Assembly (NCBI RefSeq): GCF_019059575.1
Contig: NW_024881707.1
Location: 434,001-498,000 of the forward strand
Direction of reading: 5' to 3'
Length of the DNA stretch: 64,000 bases
Source: Amphibalanus amphitrite
Taxonomy: Eukaryota; Arthropoda; Thecostraca; Balanomorpha; Balanidae
Position numbers and translations under genes: made by a program. This document shows positions 20,754 through 63,004 of this stretch, piece by piece; the stretch's first letter is position 1, and every line of letters starts with the position of its first letter. The notes under the pieces were generated by a model that was given only the letters and a program-made list of their open reading frames with translations, made no database searches and was not told the origin of the DNA.

Positions 20754-23700
20754 CCCCCCCTCCCTCCCTCTCTTCCCCCTCCCCTCTCGCACCCCCGGCG
20801 CCTCTCTGCCACGTCAGTGCTCCACCGTCCGGTAGCTGATAACATCGGACGGCGGCGCCGCGGCCCGCGCACCAGAGCTGACGTCGGTGATTTGGTGATT
20901 GGTGTCTGTTGAGTAGACGGAGAGCTCTATGGCGCTGCAGCGTTATCAGCGCCAGAGAGGTGCAGAGAGGAGAGAGGGAGGGAGGAAAAGAGGGAAAAGA
21001 GAAATAATATAGGGACAAGAGTAATTTAGAATGTTGCCTTCCTCATTGCTTCCTTACCTTTCTTCCCTGGTTCGGCTACATTGCGTTTTCTACCTTTCTC
21101 AAGCTCACCCAGTTGAATATTTCGTGGCTCCTCGAAACTTCTTTCCCTCCCACTTCCCTACCTGCTCTGAGTTGACTATCAAAGTAATGTCCGCCTCGCC
21201 CAACGTCCCCCCCCCCCTCGATTGTTCCCTCCCCATCGGACCCGGCCCGGGACATTAGCGCCGACCGCTCTGTATGTGGGCAAAGGTCACCACTCTGTTT
21301 GATCGATAGACCGCTAATCAGCTGCTCCGGATGGCCGTCGATCGGAGAAAGGAGCGATGGGGACGAGAGGGTGGTGGCGGTAGGCCATCTTTGTCGTACA
21401 GTTTTCAGATCATATCCCACACTTGTTCTACCAGACAGACCAAGCAAGCACCCGCGTCAGTTCTTAGCTTCATTCAGCTCAGCCCCAACCTCAGCCTTGG
21501 GGCTGGCCGTAGCTCTAGCTCTATCCCAAACCCTACACCAGCTCCAGTCCAGTACTGGCTTCAGATTTCAGCCTTCAGTTCTGTCCCTGTCCCGGAGGGA
21601 TGACACTGGCCGGCCTGGCCCGGGGTCTGTGAGATTGAATGGGCTTGTTTCCGTGTCTTTCGACGAAGCTGTTGAACTACGTTTGTTTTCAACAGTGTCG
21701 CCCGTTGGGATGAACAAAGTAGATCAGGCTCTATCTGTATCGACTTTTTTTTTAAATTTTATTATCATGACCATCACGACCATCATAATCGCCACACCAC
21801 ACGATCAACATCATTCCCACCATCAGTTCCGCGACCGCACAGAACCACGTCTGTTCCATCAGTACACACGGTGAGACCAGTCCATCTTCGTTCGATATCA
21901 TCAACAGACGTCACATCACCGGGCGACGCAGGCACTTTGTGCGCACATCACGGACGTCAGGCGCCTCTTACGGACCGCCCGCTGGACTGACGCGGCGCAG
22001 TATGTGACGACGTCACACGCGCGAGATTCCCGCACGTGACTCGCGAGACTGCCAGCAACAAACTTATGGAAGATGGAATGATAACATTTTCGTACGATAG
22101 TCTACCGGCACTGCCCCTTGTCCGCAACCGGTGACTGTGTCCTTATAAATACCATGCCTGCTGACACAGAGAGCAGTCGTGGGCTAAACCGCCCTCAGCG
22201 GCATTCAGCTCTGCTCCCTCCTACAGGCGCATGTACAGCCCTCTGCAAACTGCGTGGTAGGTATTCTTTTTTCGACAAAACCGAGAATAACGCGAATACT
22301 ATGCCATCGGTCACTCGGAAATCGTAACAGTATGACGCGCGAGACTTCGCACCTTAGATTGGCATTATCATCGTGTTCATTTTCTATCCAGTTTGGCAAC
22401 AAAATCCAAAAGTTTATATTTGCCCCCAAAACAGACTTTTGCATTTTGTTGCCACACAAGGCGTATACTTTGTCTAGTGATGGACCTAATCGAAGAAGTG
22501 GAGCATAGCGCATCTATTTGCAGTGAGTTCCGACCGACTGATAACATAGCCTTTGAGTTATCGCCGGTTTTGTCGAAAAAAGAATACCTACCACGCAGTC
22601 TGCTGAGGGCTGTACCTAAGTCTACCAGCGTACACCTAAGCCCAAAAGAGTACATCTAAGCCTACAAGCGTACATCTAAGCCTTAGCTGACACAAATCAG
22701 ATTGCGCAAGGATAGAGGTTACCGACAGGTGGGCGGCAGCGCGGGCCCAGCGAGGGCGGCGGCGACACGCCACCAGCGAGGGCGGCGGCAGCATAGCCCC
22801 AGCGAGGGCAGCGGCGACATCATCCCAGCGAGGGCAGCGGCGACACAGGCCCAGCGGGCTAGCTTGCGGCGGCGACGGCCACACGGGCTCGGCAGCGTCC
22901 AAGGGACGGTTACGAACACATAATGTGGGGCCGAATCAGTGGGTGAAGTGATAATATGGGCAAGGGGTGGAGGTCGGGGGGGGGGGGTAGGAAGAGGAGG
23001 GGAGGGGGTGATAGGTGTATGCAAGTTTTGAATTCGGGAAAATGTTGCAGGAAATCCGCTAAATTTTGCTGCTAAATTCTGATTTATTCTTCAAGAATGC
23101 CAGCTAATCTGCCCCACTTGGTCTCGTGTTTATCTAAAGTCTGCCGCCTGACGGCAGCGTTCTTCTCTACTGATGCTTCAGCTCTCAGTAGTGACAAAAA
23201 TAGTGACATGCTAGGGGGGACGTTTATATACTTTGAGCGCAATATCATACGTTTAGCTAATGTTATTATCAATATTTTCAACCTATCTTCGCTCGGGAGA
23301 CGAGGGAAGAACCATGTTTCTTTTTTTACATTCAAACAATGCTAAATGTGGATGTTAAGTGTGCTTCAACCTCTTTAATAAAGCGCTGCACCACATCGCA
23401 GCTCCACAACACATGTAAAGAGTTTCATCTTCCATTTCACAAAAAGTGCATAATGGACTGTCCGCTTTTCCGATACGATATAAAAATGTATTCGTGGCTA
23501 CTATTCGGTGCACTGTTCGGAAATGAAAGCTTTGCAAATAACTATTTTTGGTTGAGAGGCGTATGTCTCATTGTGCCAAAGTGCATGTCTCCCACATCTC
23601 TCACCCACTTTTGTTCTACTTTAGATGGTCTCTCTCTTTGTTTCGTGTAGAGTGCCGTGACAAGGCTTTTGTAAAGTATTTTCGATATTTTTGACTTTTC

Positions 23701-43848: not shown

Positions 43849-44972
43849 TACAAACAGGCCGCTGGCCGCCGGAGCAGCATCGAATCGGCTCCCACCCGAC
43901 TGCCCCAGGTTAATATCACAGTATTACAACGCGTCAGTCGCACAACAGCGCCTCACTGCCATCTGTCGGGCGACCATGCAACTAGCGACCTGTGGGGCCG
44001 CCCGGCTTCTCCCCACGCTGGGGAGCAAGGAACATGACTGGGCATTTGAAGGGGGATAGAAGTAGAGGGGTAGCTCAACCTCGGGATGCGATGCCGCCCG
44101 AAGAATGGTCAGAACTCAATCTGTCATTTAAGCATAACCAGAGGTCAGAGCTCAGCTGGATCTAGAGTCTCAACTGGAGTCCTGGATTTCCTGAACCCAT
44201 CGGGAGGTCATTCGAGGTCTGGATGAGGCTCACGGGATGCTTGACCACTGATGACCGATATACATGGATCGCTGGTATTTCGCCGTTTGTGACCGGACCG
44301 TACCACCGTTCGGCCACCGAGGTAACCCACGCAGCCGATTTGTTAGGGGGGTGAGCGCCGGTGGAGTTACTGGAACGACGACTCGTTACGGGGAACGGCG
44401 ACCGAATCAGAGGAGCACGCGCAGGCAATGTGAACAGGGGAGGATGAAAATGACAGATGACGGTGTAATGTATAAAAGGTTTTACGAGAGTCATCTAGCT
44501 GCCAAAACATACTAACTAGACTGCATAATGCTAATCATACAACACTAAGCGATGGTTTAAGCACACTCAAACCTGCGCGACTGAGGGGCGGCGTGGGCAG
44601 TGGCAGTTGTGTCCGCCCTCACTGGCGGCCACCAGAGGACGCCGGGACGACTCAGTCACCAGTTAGCAGCGCCCCGCAGCGCTCCTCCGGCTGGGTTAGC
44701 GCCGATCCAGGCCCTGCCCACCAGTCCGCACAAGGCACGCGTCTGCAGAACCGTCTCACGCCTCGCCACTGTGCAGCGTCCCTTCCGTCCTGCAAGCTCG
44801 CACGTGCCTTCACAGACACATATTTGGCACATACTGCCGATGGCACAACTGGCTTCGAGCACCAGCACACGGCGGCCGCTGCCCGGCCCGTCACCGCGGC
44901 GCTTTGGACGGCTCACTGTAGATGGCAGCACCTGCGCTCGAATAGATGTCGCTCGCCAACAGCGGCTCGCGT

Positions 44973-45161
44973 CTAGCGGCTGATGTTGGACTTGAGCGTC
45001 GGGTCTGGCCGCCGGCGTTTGAAGAAGCCCAGCTTCCAGAGGATGAGGCAGATGATTGCCAGAAGCAGGAGTCCGGCCAGCACGGAGACGACGATCACCC
45101 AGATGGGTACGCCGCCGTCCTCGGCCTTGGCCGGCACCGCCGGGTACGCTATCGTCTCCGC
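44973..45161 (-). CDS. ITGA: Integrin alpha last exon: transmembrane helix and tail
   Basis: 189 bp from CCCGCAG to TAG at 44973-44975. It encodes a short stalk, the helix [20 protein letters not shown] and onward, then [25 protein letters not shown] is the membrane-proximal motif that clasps the beta chain. The tail after it is short (about 14 residues). Confidence 0.97.
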
Positions 45162-48100
45162 CTGCGGGAGCACGGCACACAGTCAGACGGGGAGCGTATT
45201 GGCAGACATCGAACGAGACTAACAACACTTAGCTGAAAGGGCATTAGAGCGTTCAGAGCTGCTTACGGCTCGAGCCATCAGCTTTTAAGCAGGCGGCAAA
45301 ACATATCTTTTATTTGGAGTGAGTGCGCGTGGGTTTGGTGTTATTAGTGTGTACGAGTATGTGTGGGTGTGGGTGTGTTGCTGCGCCAGACAATTGCTAT
45401 GTTATGCCTTGTACCATTTTGACTCCCCCAACCGTTTTATTGATTGACAATGGACACGTAATAGCCACTCTGCTGTGGTGTGTCTGCTGAAGTGAATACA
45501 GGAATACAAGCTCAATGTTCCTCTGTCCTATCTCCATACGACTATCGCACCTCTCATCCGCCCTTTCTTCTCGCGCCAATGCAGAACACTACACCCACCA
45601 CTCTCCATCCTTCCATCTCCCATATTCCTCCGTCCACCTACCATGGAGACATCATCGGAGACATCCTGCAGCTGCTCCAGGGTGGGGTCCATCTGCAGCG
45701 TGGCGCGCGACTTGATAGACACGTACGAGACGCGGTCATAGTCCTCGACCAGAGTGTGGTTCCAGATGCGGCCCTGGATGTGCACCAGCGCGTACTGGTT
45801 CGGCTTCAGGCTGTTGATGCGGCACCGGAACTGAACACACTTGGCTGTGTTGCGCGCGCAGTCCTGAGGGAAGGGTGGTGGAGGGTTAGATCGGCGTGGT
45901 GGAGTTCAGACAGCGAATAATTAGTTATATCAATAGTGAAGCACAGTACAGAATGTGAGAATCCCGCTCTCGCATGTCTTGCATGGGACGGCAAGTTTAT
46001 TAATAGCCGCAAAATTTATCTATCATATCCAGCCATCACGAGGCAGCTGCTCAAAGAGCATTTTGAAATGTTACTATCTCTTCCACAGCGTAATTAAACT
46101 ATCATAAATCAACGACCTAGCCATATAATTGCAATTTGAGGTGAGGCAGACCCTCCCCCTTCCTCCCGCCTCCCGCCCCGCCGCGGTACTCACAAAGAAC
46201 ACCACCTGCTGCACCTCTCCGGACGGCGACGTCACCGCCTCGGGCATCACCACCATCTCGCGCTCGCGGCGCCTCCTGACGCCGACATCGCGCCGCGTGC
46301 GCCGGTCCTCCTCGGTGGTCAGCTCGCGCTCGAAGCCGTCGCCGCCGTCCAGGTCGCGGTGAGCCTGGTAGGTGCGCCGCGTGCCGTCGCCCAGGTCCTC
46401 CACCCTCTCGACGCCTCCCTGGACGCGGCGCGAGCTGAGCTCGTCCCGGCGCGTGGCCAGGTCGACGGGACCCAGTCCGTCAGCGGGCAGCGGCCGGCGC
46501 GACTCGTACTGGCGCCGATAGGTGTACGACTGGTTGCCGCCGGTGGCGCCGCCAATCGGCCGGCGGCGGCGGTAGTAGCCGCGCCGGCGGCCGCCAGGGC
46601 GGCGCGCGCGGCCGCCGGTGGCGCCCTGGTAGGTGGAGCCCTCGTACTCCGACTCGTACTCGGAGCCGTCCTCGTACTGTCGCCGCAGTCCGCCGCCGGT
46701 GCGCGCGTCACCGCCGGCGCCCAGAGCGCCCTCATACCGCCCGCCGCCCGACTGGCTGTCGAAGGAGTTGGTGCGGAATCCCTGGCCGGCGCCGTAGCGC
46801 CGCTCCAGCTCGTCGCTACTGCTGCCGCTATAGCTGCCGCCGTAGCTGCCTCCGGTGGTGGAGCCGGCGCTGCCGCTACTGGAGCTGCTGGTCTGGTACC
46901 CTCGCCGGTCCACTGTGGCCGATACCTGCCCGCCCGACTGACCCGAACCGTAGCGTTTCTCGGAGAACGATCCGCCCTGATAGCGCCTGTCAGTGGCACC
47001 GCCCTGGTACCGGCTGTCGTATCCGCCATCACCAGTCCCCGCACCGGCACCAGCACCACCCGTGTAGCGCCGCTCCGTGTAGCCGTACCGCCGGGTGGTG
47101 TAGTCATCCTCTGTGTCCCCCGCCACCGTGCCGTACGGCCGGCGTCGATAGGCGTCCTCCTGCTTCCGCCTGCGATCATCGATGGCATTCAGACCGCTAC
47201 CGTAGTCGGTCTTCCGAACGGTGGTGTCCTCCACAACGACTCTGTCGTGGTGATCGCCCGTGAACGAACCTCCTCCTCCAAACGACCCGCCGCTGGAGGA
47301 CTCCTTACGGGACGAGTTGGAGAAGCTGTACTCCTTCTTGTAGGAGGACTCCTTCGACGACGAAGAGGAAGAGGAAGAAGATGATGAAGATGATGAAGAA
47401 GAAGAGCTGCCGGAGGTGGCCCTGGAGTATCCGCCGCCGGCCGACGTGAAGCCCGACTCGGTCTGGTAACCGGAGGCGCCCACGTAGGCGCCGGTGATAC
47501 TCGGAGAAAAGACGGGCTCCTCGACCAGCTGCTGCAGATTGCGCGGGTTCACGATCGCCTTGTCGAACGTACACTCGCCGTCGCCTGCGGAGAGGGCGGA
47601 GATGGGTACGGGTTAAAGAGTTGTAGTAGTAGATCGGGAGAGGGTAGGTGTCGCAGCGTGAAAATGGTAGACACTCAAGGTGACAGAATTAGATAAAAAC
47701 AGCGTGGATTGTACGAACTAAAGCACGACGAATGAAAAAGTTCAGAAACCTGTTAGCTGGACAGTTATCGAAACCGTGCATAAAAACAATCAGCTAAGTC
47801 TCCAAGGGTTGTGGGTAACAGCATATCAGATCCCAAAACCAAATCATCTTACTTCTTCAAGCCCCGAAGCCCACCCTCACCTCTCCACTTTTTACTCTCT
47901 CATCCCTCTCCTCTTCTCTCACCTTCCACCACTGGCGGCTTGGTGAGGTAGAGGAGCCACTTTCCGCGCGGCCCTGGGCTCTGTACCTCCACCGGCCAGT
48001 CAATCAGCACGTCCACCCAGTCCACCGTGGACGGGCCATCGTTGTACACCTCGTACTTGTGCAGGATCGGGCTGCCCACCTCGTCCAGACTCTTGACGTC

Positions 48101-51100
48101 GCTCTCGCCCTTCACCTCGCCGCCGTAGAACACCTGCTCTGGCCAGGCCACACTGAGGGAGGGAGGGGTGGGGAGGTTAGAGGTGGTCCGATATACGGCA
48201 CACGGCAGTCACAGCTAAACAATTAACCGATCAAAAAGGAGGAAGATACAAATCAACGATCCGTGTTAGTCACAAAAAGGCAGATAGGCGCACTGGCGGC
48301 GTTCGCCAGCATTCGGAGCACCGGATTCCATAAACAAAAACATAATAATGGCGTTACATTGTTCAATCTTCATACCCCTCCCACTGTTATCAAATCCCAG
48401 CTCCATCCCAACCCACATTTCAACTCCCCTCCACTCCCCCTCGATCCCCTCCCCCACCCCGTTCACCGCACTCACCCGCTGACGGAGATCTCGCTGCGTT
48501 TGGCCACCCGGGCGCGGATGATGCTCTCGCCCTGCGGCTCCGTCTGCTCCGAGGTCGTGTTGGTGCTGAAGCTGAGCTCCACCATCTCCTCGTCATCGTC
48601 CAGCTTGTCGACGTTGAAGCGCAGCACCATCTCCTGCGTGCCGCGGCTGACCGGGTTCCCCAGGTTGCAGATGAGCTGGTTGCCACTGTTCTGGCAGGCG
48701 ATGTGGTCCTGTCGGGGGGCAGATAAGAAGAGGTGAGACGGGATGGTTACTCAATCAACTGAGGCCTGAGGGTTGGCTTGGAGGGGTTTGATACCTGAAT
48801 AAAGCGTATGCTGAGTGCTTATTACCGCGATGAAGGGTTGTAAATGTATGGGAATTTATTGCAAATGCATATACGGTTTTGAGAATACGTGAAGCTGGGG
48901 ATGCCAGTAGCGGTGGAACTAACTTATCGATCAACAATCATTCCGAGCATGCCATATATATGTTCTATCAGCCTTGTCCTCTAATGCATTTTATATCTAA
49001 AGTCTTTACATCTTGCAATGAAGCTATGGTCATTGGCTAGACAGCGTTCGCCATTCGACAATAAGTGCAGTGATGAATCAACTACTGATACTCCTGCAAA
49101 TGTCCCTTCAATAGGTCAACAAGCAGCTGGAGAACGAACTGTAAGCTACCAAACATTTGCATAGTGTAGTACAGTCATGCTCGTATACCAAGTCATGTTA
49201 TCACTAACGAAAGAGCTAAATATTTACGCCGCATACGAGTGCATTCATGATCAACATGCACCCTATAACTCTAACGTCCATGCCCATGAGAACAGCGCTA
49301 AATACCACAGCGAACACCACTTACAGGCAGGCAGTCCGGCCAGAAGGGGACCATTCCTACCTCAGGAGCCCTGAACTGCTCCGTCCGAGCCATAAGTTAG
49401 TCAGCGGGGAGAGATCGTACACAGGTTCAAACGTTAGTGGGAGCTATTGGCTACATCACACGCATTTGTTAGTGGAGGTGAGGTATCAGTATGATTTCTT
49501 TTTCAAGTCGTGCTAGAAATACATTTAAGGGTTAATTCTAACGACAATAGCCTCCGATATATTTAGGTTAGTCACAGACCACCAACGTTACACCTATCAG
49601 CTAAGCAAACAACACACGGCAAAAACACCAAACCACCTATCGACGCACACCAGCCCACACACCGCACACACGCCGTGAGACGTCACCTCCCGATACCTTC
49701 CCCCTCTCCCACGGTGACACTCTGTCCCCTTCCCCACCCGGTGTCACCCTGTCTCCGCTCTGATACTGACCGTGGGCTCCTTGCCGACAAAGCTGATGCT
49801 GGGCGGGTAGGTGACGAACAGCCGGGCGTTGTAGGCCGGCTCGCCGTCGTTCCGGATCGTGGTGTTGATGCGCAGCAGCTTCCCGACCTCCTTCTCCAGA
49901 ACGGAGAAGCCCTCCTCGTCTAAGGAGAGGGGTGAATGTCAGTTATTGGGATGGTGGGGTTCAGACGCATGCTGGTCATCACAATGAGAACGGTAGACCG
50001 TGGGTCAGAACAGGTAGGAAAAAAGTACAGGAAAAACTGTGAGGCCAAAGGGTTTACAAGGCGTTTGTCGTCTAACACTGACTTCAGCTGACACTATTCT
50101 CAGTCATAAGAAACGGTAACACCCTATAACGCATGACCGCTCAGCTCTTCAAAATAGCAGAGCCAATGCCTTCACCATCCCACCAAATCTCACCTGTCCT
50201 AAGATCGAACACAGGCTTGACCTTCAGCTGACTCTGACACACTTCATCGGAGCCGCACTTTTTGACAAACTTGGCGTAGAAGACCTTGGACGCCTCCTCC
50301 TGGTTGAGGATGGGGAAGTTGTCGATGTCTGGCAGCGACCCACCGGGGTACGCCTGGCGGGGCACCCTCTGCTGCAGCGAGTAGGTCAGCTTCATCGGGA
50401 TGCTCGTCTGGATGTCGCGGGTGTCCTTCTGCGGAGAGAGGAGGGCAGGGCGGTGTTAGGGGGACGGGTCACAACAGGGGGAGGGGCGTGCAGGGAGGGG
50501 TAGAATCTGAGAGGCGGCACTGGCGTGCAGCATCAGTAAGTTTTACGAAGGGGGACGACGGACGTAAACCAGCGAAGCCAATGTCTTTAACTAGCTATAC
50601 TTAGATGATCTATTTCATATAAACCTTTCGCTGGGTCGCTGACCTAAACTATTAAATTCACTCCCTTTCTTTACCCTCCCCTGCCTTTTCCCACCCCTCC
50701 CCTGGACCGATAGGTCCGCACCTTGATGAACATGGTCTCCTCCTGGCAGAAGTACTCGCGGGTGTTATCGGCGCTCAGTGGCAGCGTCCTCTCGACCACG
50801 TGGCGCCGCTCGGGCAGACCTTCCAGGAAGCGAACTCTGGAGAAGCGCCGGTCCGGCTGGAAGGTCTCCGCCTCCAGACGGTACTCGAGGTTCACAGTAG
50901 TCTTCAGCTGCTCCAGCGACTCCATCTTGAAACAGGCCTGGAACGTTACGCTGGAAAAACGCAGCAGAGGGGAAATGTTAGCAGTGTGGTGAATACAAGT
51001 GCAGATACTAAGCGGTGTCACAACTTTGAAAAAGTTCAGTTATGAAGTCAATCCAAGATGCAATACACTCATTTTGTAGACGGACATTCAAGCAGGACGT

Positions 51101-54100
51101 ATATTATGACTAGGTTAAACTGAGCAGTGGCCTGTGTTTGCCGTTAGCACAGGCGCTGATCCATGCTAATCTAATGCTGATATCACGACAGCTCTATGTC
51201 GCTATCTCGCGGCAGCGCAATCGGCGTCCACTTGACGGCTGCCGACATACACAACCTCAGCGTACAGTGCAAACACTCTGGATCCCATCAATACCCCGCC
51301 CAGCAGCCGCACTCGGCACTCGCAGCCACAGATCACCCTGGATAAACAGCCGCCCACTACAGTTACACCCACGGCCGGCGCGGCCCGATCGCAGCGCCCC
51401 TGGCGGCCCAGTGGCTCACCACTTGAGTCCGATGCCGGGCTGTTTGTCGCAGCTGAGCTCGGATGGGTTGATTCTGGTCAGCTGGTCCATCCCCTCCACC
51501 TTGGTAACAATGCCGACAATGGGCCGCGCTCTGAGGATTAGGAGTGACGTCATTGTTTACGGGGTGACGGCAAACCGAAACAGTAGGTATTGACTGGGCG
51601 AATAAGACAGGAGAGCACACAAAAATTAAAACCAGCCTCGCATCTTAAAAATGGTCGAAAATTGAAAAAAAGAATCGGATAAATAACACATCGCAAGGTT
51701 CAAAAGAGCATCGGAATAAGCCTGGCACCAGAGAAAAGAACATCAAACAGAGAGATACCCAAAATGTGATTTTTCGTAACGTCGGTGCTTATATCTGTAT
51801 AGATTCATTCGATCAGAACTATCTTTCAAACGCTTCACCATCCCACCCCGCCACTCTGCCCCCTCCCAGGCTCCCACTGCATTCAACTCTACCCACCTGA
51901 TCAGCGACACCGTATCATTGCAGAACGACCCGATCAGCAGATCCGGGTAGCCATTTCCGTCGATATCCAGACCTCCTCCGAGGGAGTATCCAAAGGTGAT
52001 GGGCGCGCGCGCTCCTGCCACGTCCTCGGATCGTATCACCTGTGCCGGCTCTGTACTCAGACCTTTTGAGCCGCCCAGGTAGATGCGCACCACGCCGGCG
52101 CCCTCGAACGGAGCGCCCACAGCAAGGTCCGGATAGGAGTCCTTGTTCAGGTCGCCCAGACTGGCCAGCGCGAAACCGAACCGGGACTCGGGAGCACCTG
52201 GTGAGAGAGGAGCGAGTTAGATAGACAGGGGACCGGGTGAGCTGTGGGTGTTTAATAGATAAATATAGAGCTGACTCTCATAGTGAGAGAACGTCGTTCA
52301 ATAGAATCATCCTGAGGAGCTCTGAACTTAGGGATAGCTCAACCTCTTATATAGAATCTGCAAGCGTTCAACAAAGGCATCTCACAGGATACAAATTGTA
52401 GCAAATCAAGCATTGGTATATTATCTTCATATATCATCTATTACTCATCTCCAAGTACCTCGCTTGAGTATAGAACCCACCCACCATCCGTCTTCACTCG
52501 GTCCTTACCCAGAATGCGGGTGGGTTTGGTGCTCTTGGTCAGGCCCGAGCGGGGTGTGGAGTAGATGTAGATGGCGCCACCGGACGCCTCGCCATCGCCG
52601 GTGAAATGGAACGGAGCACCGACCACCAGATCGGTCATACTGCAACGAGCGGGATGGTACGTACGTCAGTCACATCCTGGTCCATCGGTCAGGATCGCCA
52701 GCGCCACTATCAGCAGCAAACAAACACTTTGTCAGGGTATGAATTTATGGAAAAGGGACATACCTTTTCTGCACATACAAAATAAAACACTAAACTACAT
52801 GGTTAGCTCAAAAGACCAAACACCACAGCTTGGCAATCCAAAATATTCATGGCTAGTGGCAGAAAAAGATACTTAAGGTTTTATATTTTCTATTGCCATA
52901 ACACACTAGCATAGCAGTTACAATACGACGAACACTTACCCATTTTGATCGAAATCGTCAGCGCAGAGTTCGTATCCGAACTGGGAGAAATGCTCCTCTC
53001 CATCAATAATTAGGTCGTATCGTAGTGTCTTCTGGCCAACTCGCTCCTGAAAAAAAATAAGAGGGTGGGATACGTCAAAGAAAGAGAGAGGAAGGGAGAA
53101 CTATGAAAGAGCGAGAGAGCAGAGAGCAGAGACCACCCTGTTCTATCGCTGCAAACCGGTATGGTTGTGTCCACTTGTACTGTGCATTAGATTAGCGGTA
53201 AATGGTCATTAAGCGAATATTAATGAGCCACAGAGGTAATAAATTCATGAAAAACTGCTCCGCAATTAACCGAACACACAACAACTGATACTTTTTACGC
53301 CCTCCAGCCGGTTATGCAATAAATATGTCGCATATAGCATGGATCCAAGCCCCAAAGTACACCAATCAAACAACTGTACAACTGTCCACGATCGTAGCAG
53401 GCGCCCGGCAGGCGGCAACTTCTTAAGCGCCGCGAATAATCAGTCCAACCTGACGTATAACCCTGTGCGTGGACTCTGCATGTGCTATGTGCTCAGCGTG
53501 CTGTGTTCTCAGTGTGTTCTGTGTTCAGTGTGTTCTGCACTCACCTTCGAGAAGAAAACCACCTGTCCTGTGCCCTGGGAGCGCGGTGCGCCGGCCACGA
53601 TCGACTGGGAGGCCAGGTTGGGGAAGAACGTGCCGTACGCCACGGCCATACCTGTCGCCGAGGACAAACGTGCAACAGGTGTTATTCGACGTGCTCATTG
53701 AAATAACACGAGTCTGCGATGACTGGTGGTCCATCCTGCAGATATTGAATAAGTGGATTGATATGGACAAGTGGACAATAAGAGCAGAAGACACGCAGAG
53801 TACAGACAAAAATAAAGCCAATCATTACAACCCAGCAGATACACAAACCCGCGACAATTCGGACACCTTACATCCGTTCCCTCGCACTTCACCCGACACA
53901 ACAATGACACTGTACTGTGACACCGTACTGACACCTTCTGCTGACACCCCCCCCCCCCCCCCACGCGAGCCGCACCCTCAACCCGATTCAGCCGTCACGA
54001 AACACAAATGAGACTGTCCGTCAGACTACCTACCTAGCCACAAACAGTGACAGTCGCCTGATTGGACGACGCGGTGGTGCGTGAGCAGTGCCCACAGAGC

Positions 54101-57100
54101 GCAGAACACGATTTTGAACAGGGATGGGGTGAGGTGGGATCTCTAGGGTCTGTGAGGGATGGGTCGGAATGCCTGACAGGATTTTCACGAACATCACACT
54201 GGATGAAAGCACGGTAACAACTAACACATTCAGCTGTAATATCCAAAAAGCTGGCCTGCATTCTTTGTTGCACGACTGCTTTGCCCGACACACGTAACAC
54301 GCCGTCCGCTCGCGACATTAAAAATATTACTTTGTCGTGTCTGTTTCACACATGCAAAACACATCTACGGAAAACACCGACGTTCTATGCGAAGAATATC
54401 AAAATTGGGGCGCTTTCGCAGTCTCGCGGACGACGAAGATTCTATGTCATCCGGCCAATAGCGTTCGAGAATAGAGGTGGCAAAAGATGAAAATTTTGGG
54501 AACCAGACTCGAACCAGACCCGGCTGGACATTTCTGGAACCAGTCGGACCCGGTATTAGTTGGAATCGGAACCAGTTGGACCCGTTCCCCAAAAGTCAAT
54601 TAATACAAACTACTTGCAGGTATCATCAGTTGCATCATGTAAAACAGCCTATTTCCCACTGGGAATACTCATGAGCTACTGTGTGCAAAGATACATTCAC
54701 TTCATATTTTGCAATAATGGCTAGTGTGCAAGATGTATAGTTTATGGTAGGACCCGGTTGGAACCGGCAGAAAATTTCCAGGAACCGGTCTGGCCCCATA
54801 TGGGTCCAGACTGGTTCTTAGGACCGGGTCCTCGGGTCCACATTTTGCCACCTCTATTCGAGAACCGTGGCCAAGCCCCCCGTTGACATTGAACGTGATT
54901 TGGCCGGACGGTGTAGAATCTTCGTCGTCCGCGAGACTCGAAAGTGCCCTAAGGCAAATACACAACGCGATAATACCAAAAGAAGACACTTATTAGAAGC
55001 ATTGCTAGACAAACATATCCTTCAGACGCCTTTCGCTCACGTACCGAGATAGCTGTACTTGTCGACGGGGCTGGTGGAGGCGGTCACCGGGCCAAAGTAC
55101 TGAGTCTTGTCGCGCTGCAGAAAGTTGTCGGAGATGTTGACGGCGAACACGGTGCCTCTCCAGGTGTAGGGACCCGGCATGCCGATGACGGCACTGTCAT
55201 CCTCTGTCAGCAGGCCGGAGGTGCCCGCCTGACAGTAGCCGTACTGCTCGTGCTGCCTGAGATCGGAGAGGAGGGCTCCAGTCAGCTACCTACAGAGTAC
55301 AGATGGATGATAGTTTCCACACATCAGCTCCCCACTCCAACTAACACTGATTCAAGTCACTAATTCACTTCCATCACCATTCTGACGAAGCCAGACTGCC
55401 TAAAACAAAGGATGACATTGCCAGCCCCATCAAATGACTCAGTAAACCGCAACGAGATCCGACTGTCCAGGAAACTCCAGGCATTACGTCTCAGCACACA
55501 CCAATGTAACTCTACGGGCGGACTCTGTCACTGCAGTCTTCCATTCACATCTGACGAGCGACGGACAAACCACAATCGTCGTCCAAACTACCGGAACAGT
55601 GCGCCGACACACAGACAACCATGCCAAGGACGAACCGCCGCTCCGTCATCCCGAGACACGAGCGCTCCCAATTCCCATCCATCGACCCTGTCACTGGCGC
55701 CAGTACAAACACAGCGTACACAGCAGTACACAACAAACAGCCGACACCACACCGAGGGCGCGGCGCCGCCAGCCGCTCCACAGCCAGCGGGCTATGCGTG
55801 ACAAAGGCAGACAGCTCAGCCGTCAATTGTGAGCAATTTGGCACTGTTGAGCCCCCCCCCCTCCCGTTGCCGTGCAGTGTGAGCATTTGTGCCGGCTCGG
55901 TGAGTTTTATGGGAAGAAGGCTGTGAGTTCGCTGGTGACCGCCGCTGGAAGTTCGGCTGGTGTATACGACTGGAGGAGCTTCATCAAGGAACAGGAGCTT
56001 CCGCAATGAGCTGGGGGAGATATCAGATAGCGCTAAGATCTGGGCTGCCTCCTTGAGGAGTTGGGATACATTTTTTTACGAAGTTCGGTATGAGTTTCTT
56101 TGGCGGGCTGATAGAAAGTTCAGTAAGGAAGATCAGATGAGTTTCTCCGAGCGGCTGACAGGAATTTCTTTTGTGATTTTTTTTTTCTTTTTTGAAGGTA
56201 GCAAGAGCTTTTCAGGAACAGCCGGAAGGCTTCTTGTGGTATGATGCAGATTTACCCAAAACCAGCCGATCATGCAGGTGCGAGTATCATGCCGATTTAT
56301 CGGTCATGACTCAGCCATTGATAGTGCTCACAATGCAACTAATAAGCGACCGTTATCACTCTCCTTGTTTTACGCCTCGATAGGAGACACCGTCTCGTCA
56401 CTGTCTCTCAGTCAGGCAGTCTAACAAATGAACCACAGTCTCGTGTTCTGACAGCGGCCCCACACACCAGAGTGATCGCATGCACCGCATGTTTGACATT
56501 CCTCAGACAGCTACTCATTGTCGGGACACACACAGTGGCGCGGAATACGGGGAGGGGTGCGAAGGGGAGGGAAAAGACGGGAGCAGAAGCTTGAACAAGA
56601 AACACGACACGCGAAGTGGTTCACATGCCCTCAGAGTCCTCAAATGGGAATTTCCTAAGCACCGAATGCTAAACCAGCGCACGGGTTGACAATGCCGGCG
56701 ACCTACGCACAAGGAAAGCGGTCGAATGTCCATCGACTGATTGTCGCGTGTCTGACGGCGCGATAGCAGCGCTGTCGCTCCCTGTAGCTTGTACTGTCAT
56801 ATAGCGACAAAATCTCGGCGAAACTGTGCGGCAGAAATAGCCCAGTGTGGCGTGTCGACCCGACCTGCTGCGGCACTGGTGATGGGGTGGGGATCCCTCA
56901 CTCTCCTCAATCCCCCTCTATCATTCTCTCCTGCCCTCTCACCTGGTGACATCCAGATTGCGGCAGGGTATCCACTCGTGCTCAAAGTCGAGGTTCTGCT
57001 GCAGTGTGTAGCAGAGTCCGTGACCCCAGTGCCATTCGTTGGCCAGGCCGCGGTTTATATAACGGTGGGCGCACACCTGAGGACCAGGAAACAACCAGGG

Positions 57101-60100
57101 TTAACACAACGGCAGCTAGCGCGTACGGGTGCGATTCCTGTCGAGTTATCAGTAGCAGAAACATAGTAGAGTGATACATGATCAGGTTCTGTTATTTTGG
57201 CATTTGCACGTAAGCGATTGAAAAGGTCACGAGCAAAAGTTATCAGCAGAAAATGGGGAAATGAGAAATTATACCTAAGTCAGTACGGCAAACGCTTAAA
57301 ACATGCCGAAAAGAAGAAAATTTTTCGTTTACTTAACTTAAAGTATATTAACTAGTCTGTATCAAAATTAATATATGAACAGCAGAAGTCTGAGCTCCAT
57401 AAATATCAATATCAGTGCAAATGCCACTCTCCCGATCGGCCGGCCTCGGACACTGTCTGGTCCGGGCGACCACTTCATTAGGGCGACTGGAGCGCCCGCC
57501 CTGGTCGGGAGCCCGATTCGAACGCTCGCCGAATTATTCCCGGCACGCAGGCCCTGTCCACTCCAGATACCATCGGAAAGTGGCGTCACTGAGACCAGTG
57601 ACGCCACGCTGCGCCGTCCAATGCCGATTAAAATCGCCCGAAAATGAAGCCTTGACGCTTGGCTACATAAAAATTAAAACACCTTCCACTTACTGGCATC
57701 TTCACGAGCATTATATCTTCCTAATGGTGATACAGGTGATCAATATAACTGCAACTGGGATTTCTGGTCATGTGAAGATAAAACGCCTCTGACTTACCAT
57801 AACCTTGCGTCCAGGCCCCTGGCTTCGGACGGTGACACCCATCCACTGGCCTTCCTTCAGCTCGGTATCGGCCGGCGGGTTCAGAGTGATGCCGTCTGCA
57901 ACCCGGCGTTTGATAGTCAGATGGGTACTCGGGACACTCAGTAGGTCAGACGGGTAAAAATAACTATATACAGTCAGACGGGTACGGTCAAATGGTCAGA
58001 CAGGGGCAGTCAAACAGGTACGGCTCTCCAGCAAAAGAGTCGTTGGTTAACCGATGTGTTTTTCGTAATATAACTTTAAATGACAGGGCCACCTCAGTAA
58101 AACGACACAATGGAAAAGAGAAGAGGGCTCGTGCGGATACTTTGGCAACGGTTTTCAAACACCATTAGACGTATTCATCAACGCAGACCGATTTTTGTGA
58201 AGTTGGTAACCAACAACTAAATACCTGGAGAGCCGTACATTCAGATGGTCAGACAGGTACAATTAGACGGTCAGACGGCAGGTCAACACAAACGTCTAGC
58301 GGTCACACACGGGTACAGTCAAACGGTCAGGCGGGCACAGTCAGGTGTTAGACGAGAGAGGTCGAATACAGCCTAATCATACACACAGACGGCCAGACGG
58401 TTCAATACGACAGACACAGGCATACCGTAATAGTCAGACAGACGGGTATATAATATAGTCAGATGGTCAGATTGAACAGTCAGACTCAAAACAGTCGTCT
58501 CAGTCAGACGAGCGCTGCCAGTCAGGCAAAGTCAGAAGTCCTCAAATGGTCGCTCGATTCGCACAGACAAACAATCAGCGACATCACCGCATGGGACGGG
58601 GATATGGGAGGCAGGACACCCTAGCCAAGATTGTGGCACTCACGTGTTGCCAGGAAGGCTACAGCCGCGGTTCCATGTGCAGAGCCGACTATTAGCCAAC
58701 CACAGATGGCTGCTGCGGCTTGTGGCCATCAGATGTGGTCGCAGGCAGGAGGGGTTCGCACAGGAAAACCAGCTCGACTCGGGAAGGCGCTCACAGGACG
58801 TGCAGTGGAACCGCGGCAGGGCTGGATGCTGGTTTACATAACCTTGGCTGGATGTAAATGAGGTGGGACTGGTAGCGGTTTCTAGTGTTCCACGGTAGGA
58901 TAATGCACGGAGTCGGTTTGTTTTGAGCAAGACAATATATGTCGACGGTAACTGTGTTGTTGTCACGACAGTGATATAAAAATGTCACCAGGATATAGAC
59001 AATATCACGGTCAGTTAGCTCCACGCCCAAACCATTCCAAAAGTTCGCACACATCATTCAGTTAGTGGTGAAGCATGCTAAATATCACGAAACTCACGGC
59101 AAACATATTGTATCAGTGTCAGGGGGTCTTACAAGACAATTCAAGGATTTTAATGCACCACAACAACTCATTCCATGCTGAAACGGTACCGTCAAAAAAT
59201 ATTTCCTCTTAAAAAAACTCATAAAAATGCAACTGTTGCGCGCAACAAGTGCAATATTGGCTGGTACGATTAACGCAGCTTGGCCGTCGAATGAATATCA
59301 CCCATCGATTGATCAGAGAAATCAAACATTAACAAACATGTTCACGATACACATGCACAGTGCATTGTTCCCGGCAATCACCAGAAGCGGTTGTTCAGCT
59401 GGCATCGCCTCGTCGCCCGTCTACCATCTGTTCACCCTGTGCCTTCGCTGGAAACCGCAGGAAAGCAGGAGCCCCATATTCCATAGCAGCTGGAACGGCG
59501 TCGGTCATAATTTCCAAGTCCCAGGCAAGGCCGTACAAGCAATGCCAAACTTATTTAGGAGCCAATGCCACATTTGAAATAGGTATGCACCTTAATTCTG
59601 CGTTATGGTAGGTATGCAATGCAGGCATACAAACTGGTGTCTTGCATTTCTACAAAGGTGTGATGGTTACTACATTACTTATATTTAGTTGAGCTGAGTT
59701 AGCTAAAGATTTTGCTTACAGAGTTAGCTGATATTTATATTGGCCGCTTAATTCACAGCTCACTGTAATATGGGCTGAAGGCCCGACCTCGCACCTGGTT
59801 TCCAGGCCGTCCGCTGGCGCCACCGTAATATCCCGGCCCGGGCTACCAATATCGGTGCAGCGCTATCTCAATGAGCGCGCTGGCTGTTCAGTGTTCACAC
59901 AAACTGTGTTTGCCAGCGATAAGATAGGTGCTATTAGGTGTGCAGACCGCAACAAGGACCCGCTATCTACCGCGGTGACACACACGAGAGGGAATTACAA
60001 CAGGAAAAGTATATCGGCAATTACCGATAGACATATGGCACAAAAAAAAACTATAAAACAATGAGCATTTTGCGTCGGAAAGACACGACTTCGTAACGCT

Positions 60101-63004
60101 CAGCTTTGGCCATGTTGCGATCAATCCGCGACAAGGCCGTTCGCATCTCCCCTAATGCAATGTTCTGACACATTCTGGGAGACTGGCAATCTTGTCACGA
60201 TTTTAATAATGACGAGTTATTTTGATTCAATGACAAACTGTGAGAAGTAAACGTTTAGCGGATCGTAACTTTCATGTCACTGGAAATCAGGATACTGTTG
60301 CACACCTATCATACGTGATTACGCTGCAGCCGATACCTACCTACTTCAGGCTCGGTAAATTAGCGTTTAGTAAGTAAGGAAGCATTGCAAGGCGAGTTTT
60401 TCGGGATGCGGGCTATGTAATACACGTGAGATAGGCATTCATCGTTGACATTTCGCTGAAGTTCCTGGAGAGCCAGTATAACGAACTTAGTAGCAGCTAC
60501 AACCATGGCAGATTAAGCCCCCATCTAATCGCGGCCTATGAGGAGCGTGAAGACGATAATGCTACCCTGCTAATCCGCCTGCGTTCTAATGACATCACGC
60601 GAGCCCGGGGCGGTTTGATGCGCGCGGCTTATAAATCCTGGCACTCACAAAAACGGCCGGGAGGGCTGCCAACGGAGCTGCAAAAATTTCCCAGCAACCC
60701 CCGTCACAGTCAGCAGTCCGACGAGCAGCAACGTCGTATCCAAGTCGAGGAGCATCCAGTCGTGGTACCAATCACGCAGCGAGCGTCCTCTCAGCAACCG
60801 CCCGCGCATGCAGCAGAGCTGTAGCCGTCTGGGGCCCGCCGGTCCCCTCAACCCGTCCTGAAAGCTATAAGCCAGCTGTGGTGTCCGTCTCCGGTTCTTG
60901 GCATAGCGTACAAAGCACACTCCAAACCAACCAGCAGTGTGGAATCATGCAGCTAGAGGGGTGAGCCATTGGCAAAGGAACCGCCAGCCATATGGCCTGC
61001 CCGAGCATGCCTTTTCGTCTCTTTGGTGACCACTTACTCTTGATATACCGTCCTTTAACGGGATCTGAAAAGCACAGTGTCTGTTAGATGGGATATTTAC
61101 ACCGGTTTGGAGGGAGCCAGCCTGCCACCAGAAACATGGATAGCCAGAGTAGAATAGTTAAAAGCCAGTAAGCAAGGCACTAAAACACACAGTGAAAATC
61201 CCCATAAAGTATAAACAACACAAATACTTTGTGAACAAAGGCAGTAAATATTCCCAGAGACATTCATAGCAAACCTACAGAGAACGACAGCCATAGTTTC
61301 CCAAACTACAACACAAGCCAATACGACGTGAGACGTGAAAGACACATACATAGAGTAAGCAGTATGAAAAAGAAATTCGTCAGAAAGGTAGACACCCGTT
61401 ACAGAGCAACGAGGACAGGTAGATGATCAGAGCTGGCGTCGACAGGCGTGACCCGGCCCCGGGTCAACCCTTACCTGTCCCGGCGACCCGACCCGCACCG
61501 ATCGACCCAGAGGGATCGACTCGACTCGCGGACGACCTCGACGGGACGCAAGGAGGCGGGGGCGGAGACGCCTGCGCCTTTTCTCTTCTCGGCAGCCGTT
61601 AGAGGACTTATATTACTAGGCGTGACTAGGAGACGGATGTGCTTTACGTGACCGTCCTTTGCTATGGTGATAGGTCCCGCTTGTCCGTTCTGGGCACAGC
61701 GTGCTTAACAAATTGAATCTCATCATCGAAATGAGCTCTTGAAGCGAAGGTGAGGACTTTCAAGGAGCAACAGTTCTATTAAAACGTTGCTCATCTTGCC
61801 GCCACGTCAACAACTCGTAGCTATATGTAGCTTCTTTCGGCATCAGTGGCGTTATTCATGGCACTGCCACTTCCCAAATGAGCAGACGACGATGTCCCAC
61901 TTCCTCGTCATGCCAGGTGAACATGCGCTGCGCTCATTATGCATAAAATATACGCTGTAAAATGCCGTTAAGTAAAATTGGTCCGATATGTATGCTAACT
62001 AGCATTTCGTAATAAGTGATCAGTTCAATCAGGCTCGACATAATGTGCAGGTATTTTTTACTGATATCCAACCAGCTCAATAAGCTCAGAGCAACTAAGC
62101 CTGGACAAGTAGCTTAGGCTTTTCTTCTCTCGCTTCTCGGCTCACGCGAAACGGCTCAAGCCGGCTCAGCACTGTCTCTTGCAGCTCAGTTAGCAGATCG
62201 TCCTGTTGATGCTTAGTACGACTTGGTCCACCCCTTGCCACAGTATAATATCGTTCAGCTGATGTCCAGTTCAGCTGGCGATTGGAATTTCGTTAGCGAG
62301 CTCTGACTGATGGCAACCATTTATGTCATTAATGACGCCACTTTTATCGGAGAAGAAGGACACGCATCGCTTTTCAAAGAAGCTAGAACAACTGTGACGC
62401 AAGTGAGCAACGCCCCCAGGGCACTGGCCGAAGCATCTTGTCTTGAACCAGGGAAGAGTTTTACCAGACAGCGCTCTTAGAAGCGTTGCACCCTGCTGAA
62501 CAACGTTCATCACTGCAAAGTGGCAGCTTAAAATGTGACGCCGGCGTTACACAACACTGGTAGCAGAATTATGCGTCAGGCTGCGAACTTGCGCTCCCAG
62601 TTTGGCCTGTGGGTCTGAGAGCCTGCCGGACCAGTCGCTTGCATAACGCTCCTCTAGAAGCCCGGATTAATTGCTGTGACAGTTAAATTGTTCACTGAGA
62701 TCAGCCGACAAACACATCGAACGGGTTCCGCAGGACCTCCGCACCGGTCTGAGGAGCCGGGGTTAATCGCTGAGATGCCAGCTGCAGAGCCCGCCACCAG
62801 TGACACGGCCCAATCCTCGCCTCCAGACCTCCCCCGCTGCCGGACCGGACAGGGGCGCAGCTCGCGCTCCACTCACCATAGTGACCGTCCGTCTCCACCT
62901 GCTGACAGTCGTCCTGGCGCGTGGAGAGAGGACACTTCCAGAGTGCCCCGCTCTTCTCCGTGTTGGGCTGCAGGTTCTTCCCCAGTGGAGCGCCGACCAG
63001 AAGC
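44973..63004 (-). CDS. ITGA: Integrin alpha chain, PS2/alphaV type, 17 exons, 5' end missing
   Basis: Exons in transcript order: 63004-62877, 57895-57798, 57076-56943, 55256-55045, 53651-53545, 53046-52940, 52639-52509, 52197-51897, 51530-51420, 50950-50722, 50428-50194, 49919-49771, 48708-48476, 48152-47923, 47584-46194, 45863-45642, 45161-44973. All phases agree: 1401 codons plus TAG. Parts by visible residue: FG-GAP propeller (1-405) with calcium loops [30 protein letters not shown] and [18 protein letters not shown] junction (about 407) and thigh; calf-1 and calf-2; low-complexity insert (about 825-1245); light-chain start with CxxxxxxC; helix (about 1355-1380) and GFFKRRR tail. Integrin alpha chains pair with beta chains as cell-matrix receptors. 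The [13 protein letters not shown] and [17 protein letters not shown] blocks favour the RGD-binding PS2/alphaV branch over laminin-binding PS1. Without the insert, length fits the usual 1000-1050 residues. The signal-peptide exon lies beyond 64000. Confidence 0.95.
45642..45863 (-). CDS. ITGA: Integrin alpha exon: light-chain start
   Basis: 222 bp, encoding [19 protein letters not shown], then [19 protein letters not shown]. The spaced cysteines and the RIWNxTxxE strand belong to the light-chain part of calf-2. N-H-T is a sequon. The acceptor is CCCTCAG and the donor GTAGGT. Confidence 0.95.
46194..47584 (-). CDS. ITGA: Integrin alpha exon with about 400-residue Gly/Ser/Tyr/Arg-rich insert
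   Basis: 1391 bp, completing one split codon and adding 463. It begins with conserved calf-2 sequence ([13 protein letters not shown]) and ends with conserved calf-2 sequence (GEVQQVVFF). Between them is a tail-like insert: a run of about 18 Ser, then Gly-rich segments, then repeated Arg-Arg-Tyr blocks (RRYGY, ERRYTGG, DRRYQGG, EKRYGSG, ERRYGAG) and polybasic runs such as [11 protein letters not shown]. The last basic clusters, DRRTRRD and VRRRRE at about 46259-46315, fit furin sites at the normal heavy/light chain boundary. No RGD was seen. The insert is open in frame, has GC-rich coding bias like its neighbours and keeps the splice phases, so it looks like real coding sequence. Its function is unknown. 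Confidence 0.9.
47923..48152 (-). CDS. ITGA: Integrin alpha exon: calf-2
   Basis: 230 bp, encoding [40 protein letters not shown] and [12 protein letters not shown]. The YEVxNxGPSxV strand and the aromatic W..LLYL strand are calf-2 signatures. The exon ends just before the long low-complexity exon. Confidence 0.94.
48476..48708 (-). CDS. ITGA: Integrin alpha exon: calf-1 to calf-2
   Basis: 233 bp, encoding [20 protein letters not shown] and the strand [20 protein letters not shown]. The C-x6-C followed by LGNP is a standard calf motif. The donor GTGAGT splits a Gly codon. Confidence 0.93.
49771..49919 (-). CDS. ITGA: Integrin alpha exon: calf-1
   Basis: 149 bp, encoding [20 protein letters not shown] and [13 protein letters not shown], the NxGExAYxAxL pattern of calf-1. 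N-T-T is a glycosylation sequon. The donor is GTCAGT. Confidence 0.93.
50194..50428 (-). CDS. ITGA: Integrin alpha exon: thigh to calf-1
   Basis: 235 bp, encoding [26 protein letters not shown] and [14 protein letters not shown]. The last block is the alpha-chain genu disulfide (DCGxDxxCxxxL in relatives). The donor is GTGAGA. Confidence 0.94.
50722..50950 (-). CDS. ITGA: Integrin alpha exon: thigh domain
   Basis: 229 bp, encoding [34 protein letters not shown] and CQEETMFIK, matching thigh-domain strands of alpha chains. The donor reads GTGCGG, the weakest 5' splice site seen in this gene. The join to KDTRDIQ in phase 0 is unambiguous. Confidence 0.92.
51420..51530 (-). CDS. ITGA: Integrin alpha exon: propeller exit into thigh
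   Basis: 111 bp, encoding [14 protein letters not shown] and a Cys, the conserved RARPVV-type junction between the propeller and the thigh domain. The donor is GTGAGC; the split codon completes the Cys of LKC at the next exon. Confidence 0.95.
51897..52197 (-). CDS. ITGA: Integrin alpha exon: propeller blades 6 and 7
   Basis: 301 bp carrying two FG-GAP repeats: [20 protein letters not shown] with [19 protein letters not shown], then [18 protein letters not shown] with LLIGSF. Both have complete D-x-[DN]-x-[DN]-G/S-Y-x-D calcium loops. It ends in VSLI before the ARPIV exon. The donor is GTGGGT. Confidence 0.96.
52509..52639 (-). CDS. ITGA: Integrin alpha exon: propeller blade 5, GAP strand
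   Basis: 131 bp, encoding [20 protein letters not shown] then GAIYIYST, the GAP half of FG-GAP 5. The leading T completes a Gly codon from the previous exon. The donor is GTAAGG. Confidence 0.94.
52940..53046 (-). CDS. ITGA: Integrin alpha exon: propeller blade 5
   Basis: 107 bp, encoding [21 protein letters not shown]. This is the FG strand, followed by the first part of the calcium loop DFDQNGMTD that continues in the next exon. The donor is GTAAGT and the acceptor follows a U-rich tract. Confidence 0.93.
53545..53651 (-). CDS. ITGA: Integrin alpha exon: propeller blade 4
   Basis: 107 bp, encoding [35 protein letters not shown], cited here as the blade in positions 192-226. Where most alpha chains place an Asp-rich calcium loop (D-x-D-x-D after VAVG), this exon has [10 protein letters not shown] with no acidic ligands. 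The following VAGAPR strand is intact. Confidence 0.93.
54409..54949. mobile_element. Small foldback element carrying a nested hAT MITE
   Basis: The outer arms (54409-54457 and about 54900-54949) are inverted copies sharing GTCTCGCGGACGACGAAGAT and flanking bases, with some mismatches. Without the inner element it would be about 150 bp. The target duplication is not clear. Confidence 0.65.
54472..54856. mobile_element. hAT-type MITE, 385 bp
   Basis: Perfect 14-bp terminal inverted repeats TAGAGGTGGCAAAA (54472-54485 and 54843-54856) lie within perfect 8-bp target duplications TTCGAGAA (54464-54471 and 54857-54864). The interior has GGACCCGGT/GGAACCAG-type repeats in both orientations. There is no transposase. 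Its ends differ from those of the MITE at 25398, so it is a separate family. Confidence 0.92.
55045..55256 (-). CDS. ITGA: Integrin alpha exon: propeller blade 3
   Basis: 212 bp, encoding [30 protein letters not shown] and a final SPVDKYSYL. The CQAGTSG block and the GxPGxYxWxGxVF strand are hallmarks of integrin alpha FG-GAP 3. The donor is GTACGT. Confidence 0.95.
56943..57076 (-). CDS. ITGA: Integrin alpha exon: propeller blade 2
   Basis: 134 bp. It opens with VCAHRY, the counterpart of the usual CAPRY/CAPLY, and continues through [21 protein letters not shown] with conserved cysteines. The donor GTGAGA splits an Arg codon completed by the exon ending at 55256. Confidence 0.92.
57798..57895 (-). 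CDS. ITGA: Integrin alpha exon: propeller blade 2 start
   Basis: 98 bp, encoding [22 protein letters not shown]. This is the FG-GAP 2 entry, where the family has QWFGATV and a following V-x-ACAPxY. The donor is GTAAGT and the exon ends in phase 0 before VCAHRY. Confidence 0.92.
57910..58530. repeat. Imperfect GTCAGACGG(GTACA) minisatellite
   Basis: Many irregular units such as GTCAGACGGGTAC, GTCAGACAGG and GTCAAACGGTCAG occur from 57915 to 58020 and from 58240 to 58520. The units vary in length, so it is an old degenerate array. Confidence 0.75.
58021..58235. mobile_element. TA-flanked TIR element, 215 bp
   Basis: The ends CGGCTCTCCAG and CTGGAGAGCCG are perfect inverted repeats, with further complementarity (GTTGGTTAACC near 58040 and GGTAACCAAC near 58205). 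TA flanks both sides (58019-58020 and 58236-58237), as for Tc1/mariner-type MITEs; GTAC is an alternative reading. It sits inside the minisatellite. Confidence 0.65.
62877..63004 (-). CDS. ITGA: Integrin alpha exon: propeller blade 1
   Basis: 128 bp, acceptor CTGTCTGCAG, donor GTGAGT. It starts with [10 protein letters not shown], the classical end of FG-GAP repeat 1, followed by GALWKCPLS and a second Cys, the conserved disulfide of blade 1. One base of a split codon precedes it, so at least one more 5' exon exists. None is recognisable between 63005 and 64000. Confidence 0.93.

Follow-up and report, generated by a model that had tools for sequence, protein, structure and literature searches.

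A giant, probably disordered insert in the cleavage loop of a laminin-receptor-class integrin alpha chain of Amphibalanus amphitrite

The window analysed here is a stretch of 64,000 nucleotides of Amphibalanus amphitrite DNA, positions 434001-498000 of contig NW_024881707.1 (C210) in an 807.6-Mb assembly of 2644 contigs. Its minus strand carries the gene of an integrin alpha chain, in which one giant exon encodes an insert of about 400 residues at the chain-cleavage loop. Joining of 17 exons between positions 63004 and 44974 gave a frame of 1401 codons that is free of stops and consistent in phase, with GT and AG borders at 16 of 16 introns. The exon limits are predictions from these borders, the phase and homology. 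The beginning of the coding sequence, namely the start codon and the first exon or exons, is located beyond the window, and a motif search of the next 20 kb upstream did not reveal it. Pfam FG-GAP and Integrin_A_Ig_1, Integrin_A_Ig_2 and Integrin_A_Ig_3 domains were detected above the cut-off in the 1281 of 1401 residues that were searched. The chain aligns to alpha5 and alphaV on either side of the insert, and the alignment reaches the transmembrane helix and the GFFKR motif. The full domain order of an integrin alpha was found: an FG-GAP propeller, thigh, calf-1 and calf-2 domains, one transmembrane helix and a GFFKR tail. The original prediction, made from the letters of the window, had described an integrin alpha chain with intact splice phases and an intact 1401-codon frame, and both descriptions hold.

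The giant exon (47584..46194) is preceded by AG and followed by GT, and none of its 463 whole codons interrupts the frame. Within it we drew the limits of the insert by eye at amino acids (aa) 830-1240. The insert is composed of 19.2% Gly, 15.8% Ser, 13.9% Arg, 7.8% Thr and 7.5% Tyr, with 57 Arg, 79 Gly and 39 Tyr plus Phe among its 411 residues, and it contains neither Cys nor Trp. As a result 461 residues separate the first calf-2 Cys (aa 806) from the next, compared to 54 residues between the corresponding cysteines of mouse alpha7 (C862 to C916; PMC7139957) and of alphaIIb (C826 to C880; PMC12383024). The net gain of the loop is thus 407 residues over mouse alpha7 or alphaIIb, in agreement with the predicted giant low-complexity insert at this position.

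The insert is almost certainly translated; the original prediction had called this very probable. When the insert was shuffled 2000 times with its dinucleotides preserved, the frame was never open (mean 7.9 stops). At codon position 3, the GC content of the insert is 0.825, compared to 0.830 for the other codons of the gene, and the overall GC content of the introns is 0.49. Codon choice in the insert matches that of the rest of the gene, with z values of 15.1 against uniform recoding and 9.0 against recoding by base composition. Since a second copy of the gene keeps the insert with few amino-acid changes, its translation is almost certain and its sequence matters.

This second copy lies on contig C198 and is collinear with the gene and its neighbourhood, with blocks over window positions 35065-64000 that include the end of a neighbouring calsyntenin gene. 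All 17 exons are present, all 16 introns have GT and AG borders, and no stop was found. The copy is probably the other haplotype and possibly a segmental duplicate; another integrin alpha likewise lies on two contigs (C654 and C98) with nearly identical exons. Between the copies the giant exon shows 98% protein identity, and the only coding indel is 6 bp long and adds two codons to the Ser run of C198. The 15 of 16 introns that were compared (the longest was skipped) contain 199 alignment gaps, or 22.5 per kb, 135 of which are not multiples of three. Applied to the giant exon, this rate, which varies with the alignment settings, would predict about 31 gaps, compared to the one indel observed.

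In the insert, the two copies differ by 51 synonymous and 8 nonsynonymous changes, and 7 residues differ. This corresponds to a synonymous divergence (dS) of 0.177, a nonsynonymous divergence (dN) of 0.009 and a ratio (omega) of 0.05 (bootstrap 0.017-0.095), with P 9.5e-20 against the neutral expectation of 71% nonsynonymous changes. The other 990 codons carry 62 synonymous and 2 nonsynonymous differences (omega 0.009). Retained in both copies are 31 of 31 Tyr, 55 of 57 Arg, 21 of 21 RR pairs (counted without overlap), 6 of 6 Pro and 4 of 4 RX[RK]R motifs. The insert is strongly constrained and kept by purifying selection. The estimate comes from two copies of one assembly, a small sample, and omega between haplotypes does not equal conservation between species.

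Several further observations concern the copies themselves. The insert shows about twice the synonymous divergence of the remaining gene (0.177 compared to 0.094), possibly owing to mutation rate or weaker codon constraint. The introns of C210 and C198 differ by about 10% and the coding dS is 0.12, which is very high for haplotypes of one animal. A third, partial copy, at C198:371081-374321, comprises exon 10 with a 3′ portion of the giant exon close behind it, and then exons 16 and 17. A repeat of the calsyntenin end was also seen, at C198:379079. This part of C198 looks like a tandem duplication or a misjoin.

Low-complexity DNA is prone to misassembly, and an artefact in the form of a retained intron, an assembly error or noncoding DNA that is open by chance had to be considered. 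The same exon on a second contig, together with the selection against amino-acid change, leaves this explanation with hardly any credibility. Noncoding DNA, a retained intron and an assembly error were accordingly rejected on codon statistics, the second copy and the selection against amino-acid change. Another explanation is that some transcripts lose part of the exon as an intron, which would give a long and a short form side by side. Of the GT..AG pairs inside the exon, six are in frame, at least 60 nt long and pass the weakest real sites. The best of them, from 46942 to 46216, spans 726 nt; its donor scores 8.3 and its acceptor 4.2, the latter exceeding 5 of the 16 real acceptors. On the other hand, the acceptor of the giant exon is the best of 16 (13.2 leave-one-out), its donor being ordinary (5.3 leave-one-out), and the segment in question is constrained as coding sequence, with 26 synonymous and 3 nonsynonymous differences over aa 1001-1240. 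Judged by the splice-site scores a shorter isoform is possible, and we regard such alternative use as a very unlikely account of the insert.

Table 1. Features of the integrin alpha gene in the window (aa, numbering of the 1401-codon fragment)
Feature	Position in window	Strand	Basis or remarks
Whole gene fragment, 17 exons	44974..63004	-	GT/AG, phase, homology
Exons 1-6	63004-62877, 57895-57798, 57076-56943, 55256-55045, 53651-53545, 53046-52940	-	
Exons 7-12	52639-52509, 52197-51897, 51530-51420, 50950-50722, 50428-50194, 49919-49771	-	
Exons 13-17	48708-48476, 48152-47923, 47584-46194, 45863-45642, 45161-44974	-	
Exon before giant exon	47923..48152	-	First half of calf-2
Giant exon, 1391 bp, aa 802-1265	46194..47584	-	Calf-2 flanks and insert
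First calf-2 Cys, aa 806	47571..47573	-	Heavy-chain side
Insert proper, 411 codons, aa 830-1240	46269..47501	-	SITGAYVG...DVGVRRR; Gly/Ser/Arg/Tyr-rich
Run of 18 Ser, aa 861-878	47355..47408	-	Codons AGC, TCT, TCA, TCC, TCG; coordinates computed from frame start 47582 = aa 803
RARR then Pro, aa 1127-1130	46599..46610	-	Furin-like, inside arm
RRRR then Pro, aa 1140-1143	46560..46571	-	Furin-like, inside arm
RTRR then Asp, aa 1230-1233	46290..46301	-	Candidate processing site, arm end
RRRR then Glu, aa 1238-1241	46266..46277	-	Best candidate chain-cleavage site
Exon after giant exon	45642..45863	-	Calf-2 remainder, three light-chain Cys, spacing 7 and 5
Last coding exon	44973..45161	-	Transmembrane helix and tail, stop TAG at 44975-44973

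The class of the chain was assessed from its head and from its cysteines. In the head search, alpha6 scored highest with 260.7 bits, followed by alpha5 (198), alphaV (179.7), alpha4 (171.9) and alphaIIb (142.9), among 60 of 62 matches. This assignment was taken from match scores, and alpha3 and alpha7 were not among the matches listed. The first 139 aa alone gave 73.4 bits with alpha6 compared to 46.5 for the next best, and the block QWMGVTVxSQGPGxKV is common to the query and alpha6 and only partial in the alpha5 alignment. The light-chain cysteines of calf-2 (C1267, C1274 and C1279) show the 7,5 spacing of mouse alpha7 (C916, C923 and C928; PMC7139957) and not the 5,5 spacing of alphaIIb (PMC12383024). 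One result weighs against a closeness to alpha6: with the 1281-residue chain, alpha5 (282.5 bits) and alphaV (272.8) score higher than alpha6 (239.3). The lower score of alpha6 over the whole chain can be attributed to the absence of calf domains from the sole alpha6 chain listed, which is 627 residues long. Calf-2 alone gave weak matches to alphaIIb and alphaV only, with no laminin-class calf available for comparison.

The alphas alpha3, alpha6, alpha7 and Drosophila alphaPS1 form the laminin-binding or PS1 clade (PMC1145181, PMC9218073). On sequence grounds our chain is a laminin-receptor-class integrin alpha of the alpha3/6/7 and PS1 type, and thereby part of a putative laminin receptor. 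It resembles the laminin-binding alphas (alpha3, alpha6, alpha7 and alphaPS1/mew of Drosophila) in head sequence, as seen with alpha6, and in the 7,5 spacing of mouse alpha7, and cleavage in calf-2 is expected here from the family. The Cys-to-Cys distance given above sets it apart from mouse alpha7. With the RGD-class alphas (alphaV, alpha5, alphaIIb and alphaPS2/inflated of Drosophila) it has the domain order and the cleavage loop in common, but its head is closer to alpha6. Drosophila alphaPS2 has about 1396 residues, and long alpha chains thus exist. In a published table, inflated (P12080) is given at 140.0, apparently kDa (PMC3986406). The original prediction had compared the long loop to that of PS2 chains. 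This comparison did not hold up: the head is closest to alpha6, the Cys spacing is 7,5, and the two other alphas found have short loops. Membership in the PS2/RGD class was rejected on the first two of these grounds.

A calf-2 family search of the assembly yielded at least 8 places, of which 5 belong to this gene and its copies and 3 to other alphas (on C2, C654 and C98). The C98 alpha, a near-twin of the one on C654, is closest to alphaV (108.6 bits, compared to 85.5 for alpha5), again with no laminin-class calf to compare. No large insert interrupts its alignment in the calf-2 loop, and its cysteines are spaced 5,5. With the likeliest junctions the loop between the cysteines has about 52 residues on C654 and C98 and about 48 on C2, and alternative junctions give 15 to 64 residues. 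Each of the three loops ends in a basic site. It is possible that the C2 loop hides a small exon in a longer intron. Of these other alphas, the C98 chain was the one searched for its class. As far as the sequences tell, the laminin-class chain is the only one of the integrin alphas detected that has the arm formed by the insert. A search of the assembly with an 89-residue core of the insert, in which the best candidates only were scored, gave 23 matches at E up to 10. Three places matched, namely the two gene copies and the partial copy, and the remaining matches had E values of 0.97 or worse. A family of such arms in the genome was rejected on this result. When the 410-residue head was compared to viral contigs, no relatives were found, and the scan of prokaryote contigs returned 2 loci, both bacterial.

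A known domain was rejected for the insert, since the Pfam search gave no match below E 0.48 and the PDB search no match below E 1.6. In single-sequence AlphaFold predictions it contains no strand and one 10-residue helix; strands are found only in the C-terminal flank, and the mean predicted local distance difference test (pLDDT) value is 41.5. For a conserved propeller exon the same mode predicted seven strands, with a mean pLDDT of 47.8. The charge-hydropathy value of the insert is negative. On these predictions the insert is probably intrinsically disordered, which fits the flexibility that had been ascribed to it.

Integrin alphas without an A domain are cut in calf-2 (PMC12383024). In our chain, two basic motifs, RTRR/D and RRRR/E, lie between the first and the second calf-2 Cys at the end of the insert, and cleavage there is predicted. 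Two further R-X-[RK]-R motifs lie inside the arm, and further basic runs occur at 939 (RRRK), 948 and 1134 (both RRR). Furin dislikes Pro directly after the cut. If this applies here, the chain would be cut only at the end of the arm, because the internal motifs precede Pro, and tethering of the arm to the heavy chain is favoured over release, the other fate named in the original prediction. Four of the six Pro of the insert directly follow Arg (binomial P 0.004, post hoc). The several basic runs (939, 948, 1134, 1140, 1230 and 1238) could also mean that cuts at both ends or within the arm release it as a secreted peptide and leave a receptor of normal size. However, the exon has no R-X-[RK]-R before aa 1127, so that the N-terminal two thirds of the arm lack a full motif, and the two internal motifs stand before Pro. 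An excised propeptide is therefore improbable in our estimation. It is also conceivable that the polybasic part of the arm tunes the rate or site of the alpha-chain cut, or exit from the Golgi. The region aa 1121-1265, which holds all four RX[RK]R motifs, is unchanged in protein sequence between the copies (11 synonymous and 0 nonsynonymous differences). Such a regulator of processing would need neither 400 residues nor 31 retained Tyr, and we give it little chance. As a separate observation, Tyr 963, 1111 and 1115 lie in acidic surroundings by an ad hoc rule. Tyr in acidic surroundings is often sulphated, and the three positions are a hint at sulphation only.

Arg pairs and RRY-like blocks are enriched in the insert. 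RR occurs 25 times (overlapping) compared to 7.7 expected, and RR[GQ]?Y occurs 8 times compared to 0.74 expected; neither count was reached in any of 5000 shuffles. The RRY blocks are encoded by differing codons. The sole tandem array of the insert (47368-47399) lies within the Ser run, and the remaining direct repeats of at least 15 nt comprise three two-copy families. A recent tandem expansion of the whole insert at the DNA level was rejected on the small extent of DNA repetition and the differing codons of the RRY blocks. Because the codons differ and the DNA outside the Ser run is scarcely repetitive, the RRY pattern looks maintained at the protein level.

In its composition, with Arg and aromatic residues on Gly and polar spacers, the insert matches Arg/aromatic condensate formers, and by analogy it may work like such a protein without being a member of that group. 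Mussel foot protein 3, which is involved in wet adhesion, is rich in Gly, Arg and Tyr; it differs in being a secreted glue, and the likeness is one of general composition. The glycine-rich tick cement protein tick-GRP77, with about 26% Gly, 9% aromatics and spaced Arg, phase separates via Arg-aromatic contacts (PMC11794139). It is likewise disordered, extracellular and from an arthropod, but it is a free secreted protein and not part of a receptor, and the likeness is again one of composition. An arm that makes many weak contacts is favoured because RR and RR[GQ]?Y are enriched and because of the analogy to the tick protein.

As the most likely reading, held with somewhat less than even confidence, we propose that the insert is a disordered, Cys-free arm of Arg/Tyr stickers on the heavy chain that clusters receptors or ties them to the matrix. 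According to this proposal, an extension of the processing loop in calf-2 by about 407 residues has produced a disordered arm, in which Arg-Arg-Tyr stickers sit on Gly/Ser spacers. Calf-2 would fold around the arm and be held by its usual cysteines, as in the family. A proprotein convertase would cut at RRRR/ERE or RTRR/D at the C-terminal end, and the heavy chain would then end in the arm, which would stay disulphide-bound close to the membrane. The arm might make numerous weak contacts, of the Arg-Tyr, Tyr-Tyr and Arg-polyanion kinds, and so bring adjacent integrins into clusters or attach them to polymers of the basement membrane; these contacts and their effect are the weakest step of the scheme. 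In a bolder form, the arms of adjacent laminin receptors would condense with one another and with polymers of the basement membrane, and the receptor's own heavy-chain tail would drive clustering from the extracellular side; this form seems unlikely to us.

A number of results weigh against an arm of this kind. The pLDDT barely differs between the insert and the propeller exon, and only secondary structure separates the two. The insert is near-neutral, with a net charge of +0.027 per residue, which weakens binding to polyanions outside the basic stretch aa 1130-1179 (+0.18 per residue). Plain RY is not significantly enriched in the insert (7 compared to 4.3 expected, reached in 594 of 5000 shuffles). 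The internal donor at 46942 outscores the donor of the giant exon itself, so that internal splicing could remove part of the arm. The preference for a tethered arm draws on general knowledge of furin, and the function is argued from composition. Finally, the insert is under weaker constraint (omega 0.05) than the other codons of the gene (omega 0.009; Fisher P 0.047).

The last point also speaks for the principal competing explanation, in which the arm is a passive spacer with no other requirement than solubility, disorder and freedom from cleavage, and constraint reflects the avoidance of harmful residues instead of a role in binding. Calf-2 being the region that is cut in alphas without an A domain, its loop may tolerate length, and the two other integrin alphas found manage without an arm. 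On the other hand, an omega of 0.05 and the full retention of Tyr, RR and Pro exceed what solubility should require, and one indel stands against the approximately 31 expected at the intron gap rate, within the dependence on settings noted above. We consider the passive spacer possible but doubtful, and prefer the sticker arm at the tentative level stated.

Other features of the window were recorded beside the insert. Just past the stop codon TAG, a second frame is open (REPLLASDIYSSAGAAIYSEPSKAPR, window 44894-44971, minus strand) and could be an alternative cytoplasmic tail; alpha3, alpha6 and alpha7 chains have alternative tails. The calsyntenin gene (11111-39279, plus strand) lies tail to tail with the integrin gene. 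Pfam detected CLSTN_C in three of its frames (34695-35051, 38278-38688 and 39022-39279) and a laminin G domain in frame 31681-32019. A cadherin match under the curated cut-off (15757-16008) may be part of this gene, and the frame 11111-11374 is cadherin-like by eye, with no Pfam match. A 587-codon open frame on the minus strand (23542-25305) matches RVT_1 with E 2.6e-39 and is apparently a copy of a retroelement. Rfam and tRNA scans gave 0 matches.

To our knowledge, the calf-2 loop of integrin alpha chains has been regarded as a cut site and little more. In open-licence literature we found no title or start of an abstract on a long insert in an integrin alpha cleavage loop; this does not prove novelty. 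Integrins are a familiar receptor family; the surprise is that about 400 probably disordered residues are held at an omega of 0.05, in the laminin-class chain only among the alphas found. An arm that is kept in the laminin-class chain and absent from the two other alphas found amounts to a natural experiment. It poses the question whether extracellular disorder can cluster adhesion receptors or tie them to the matrix.

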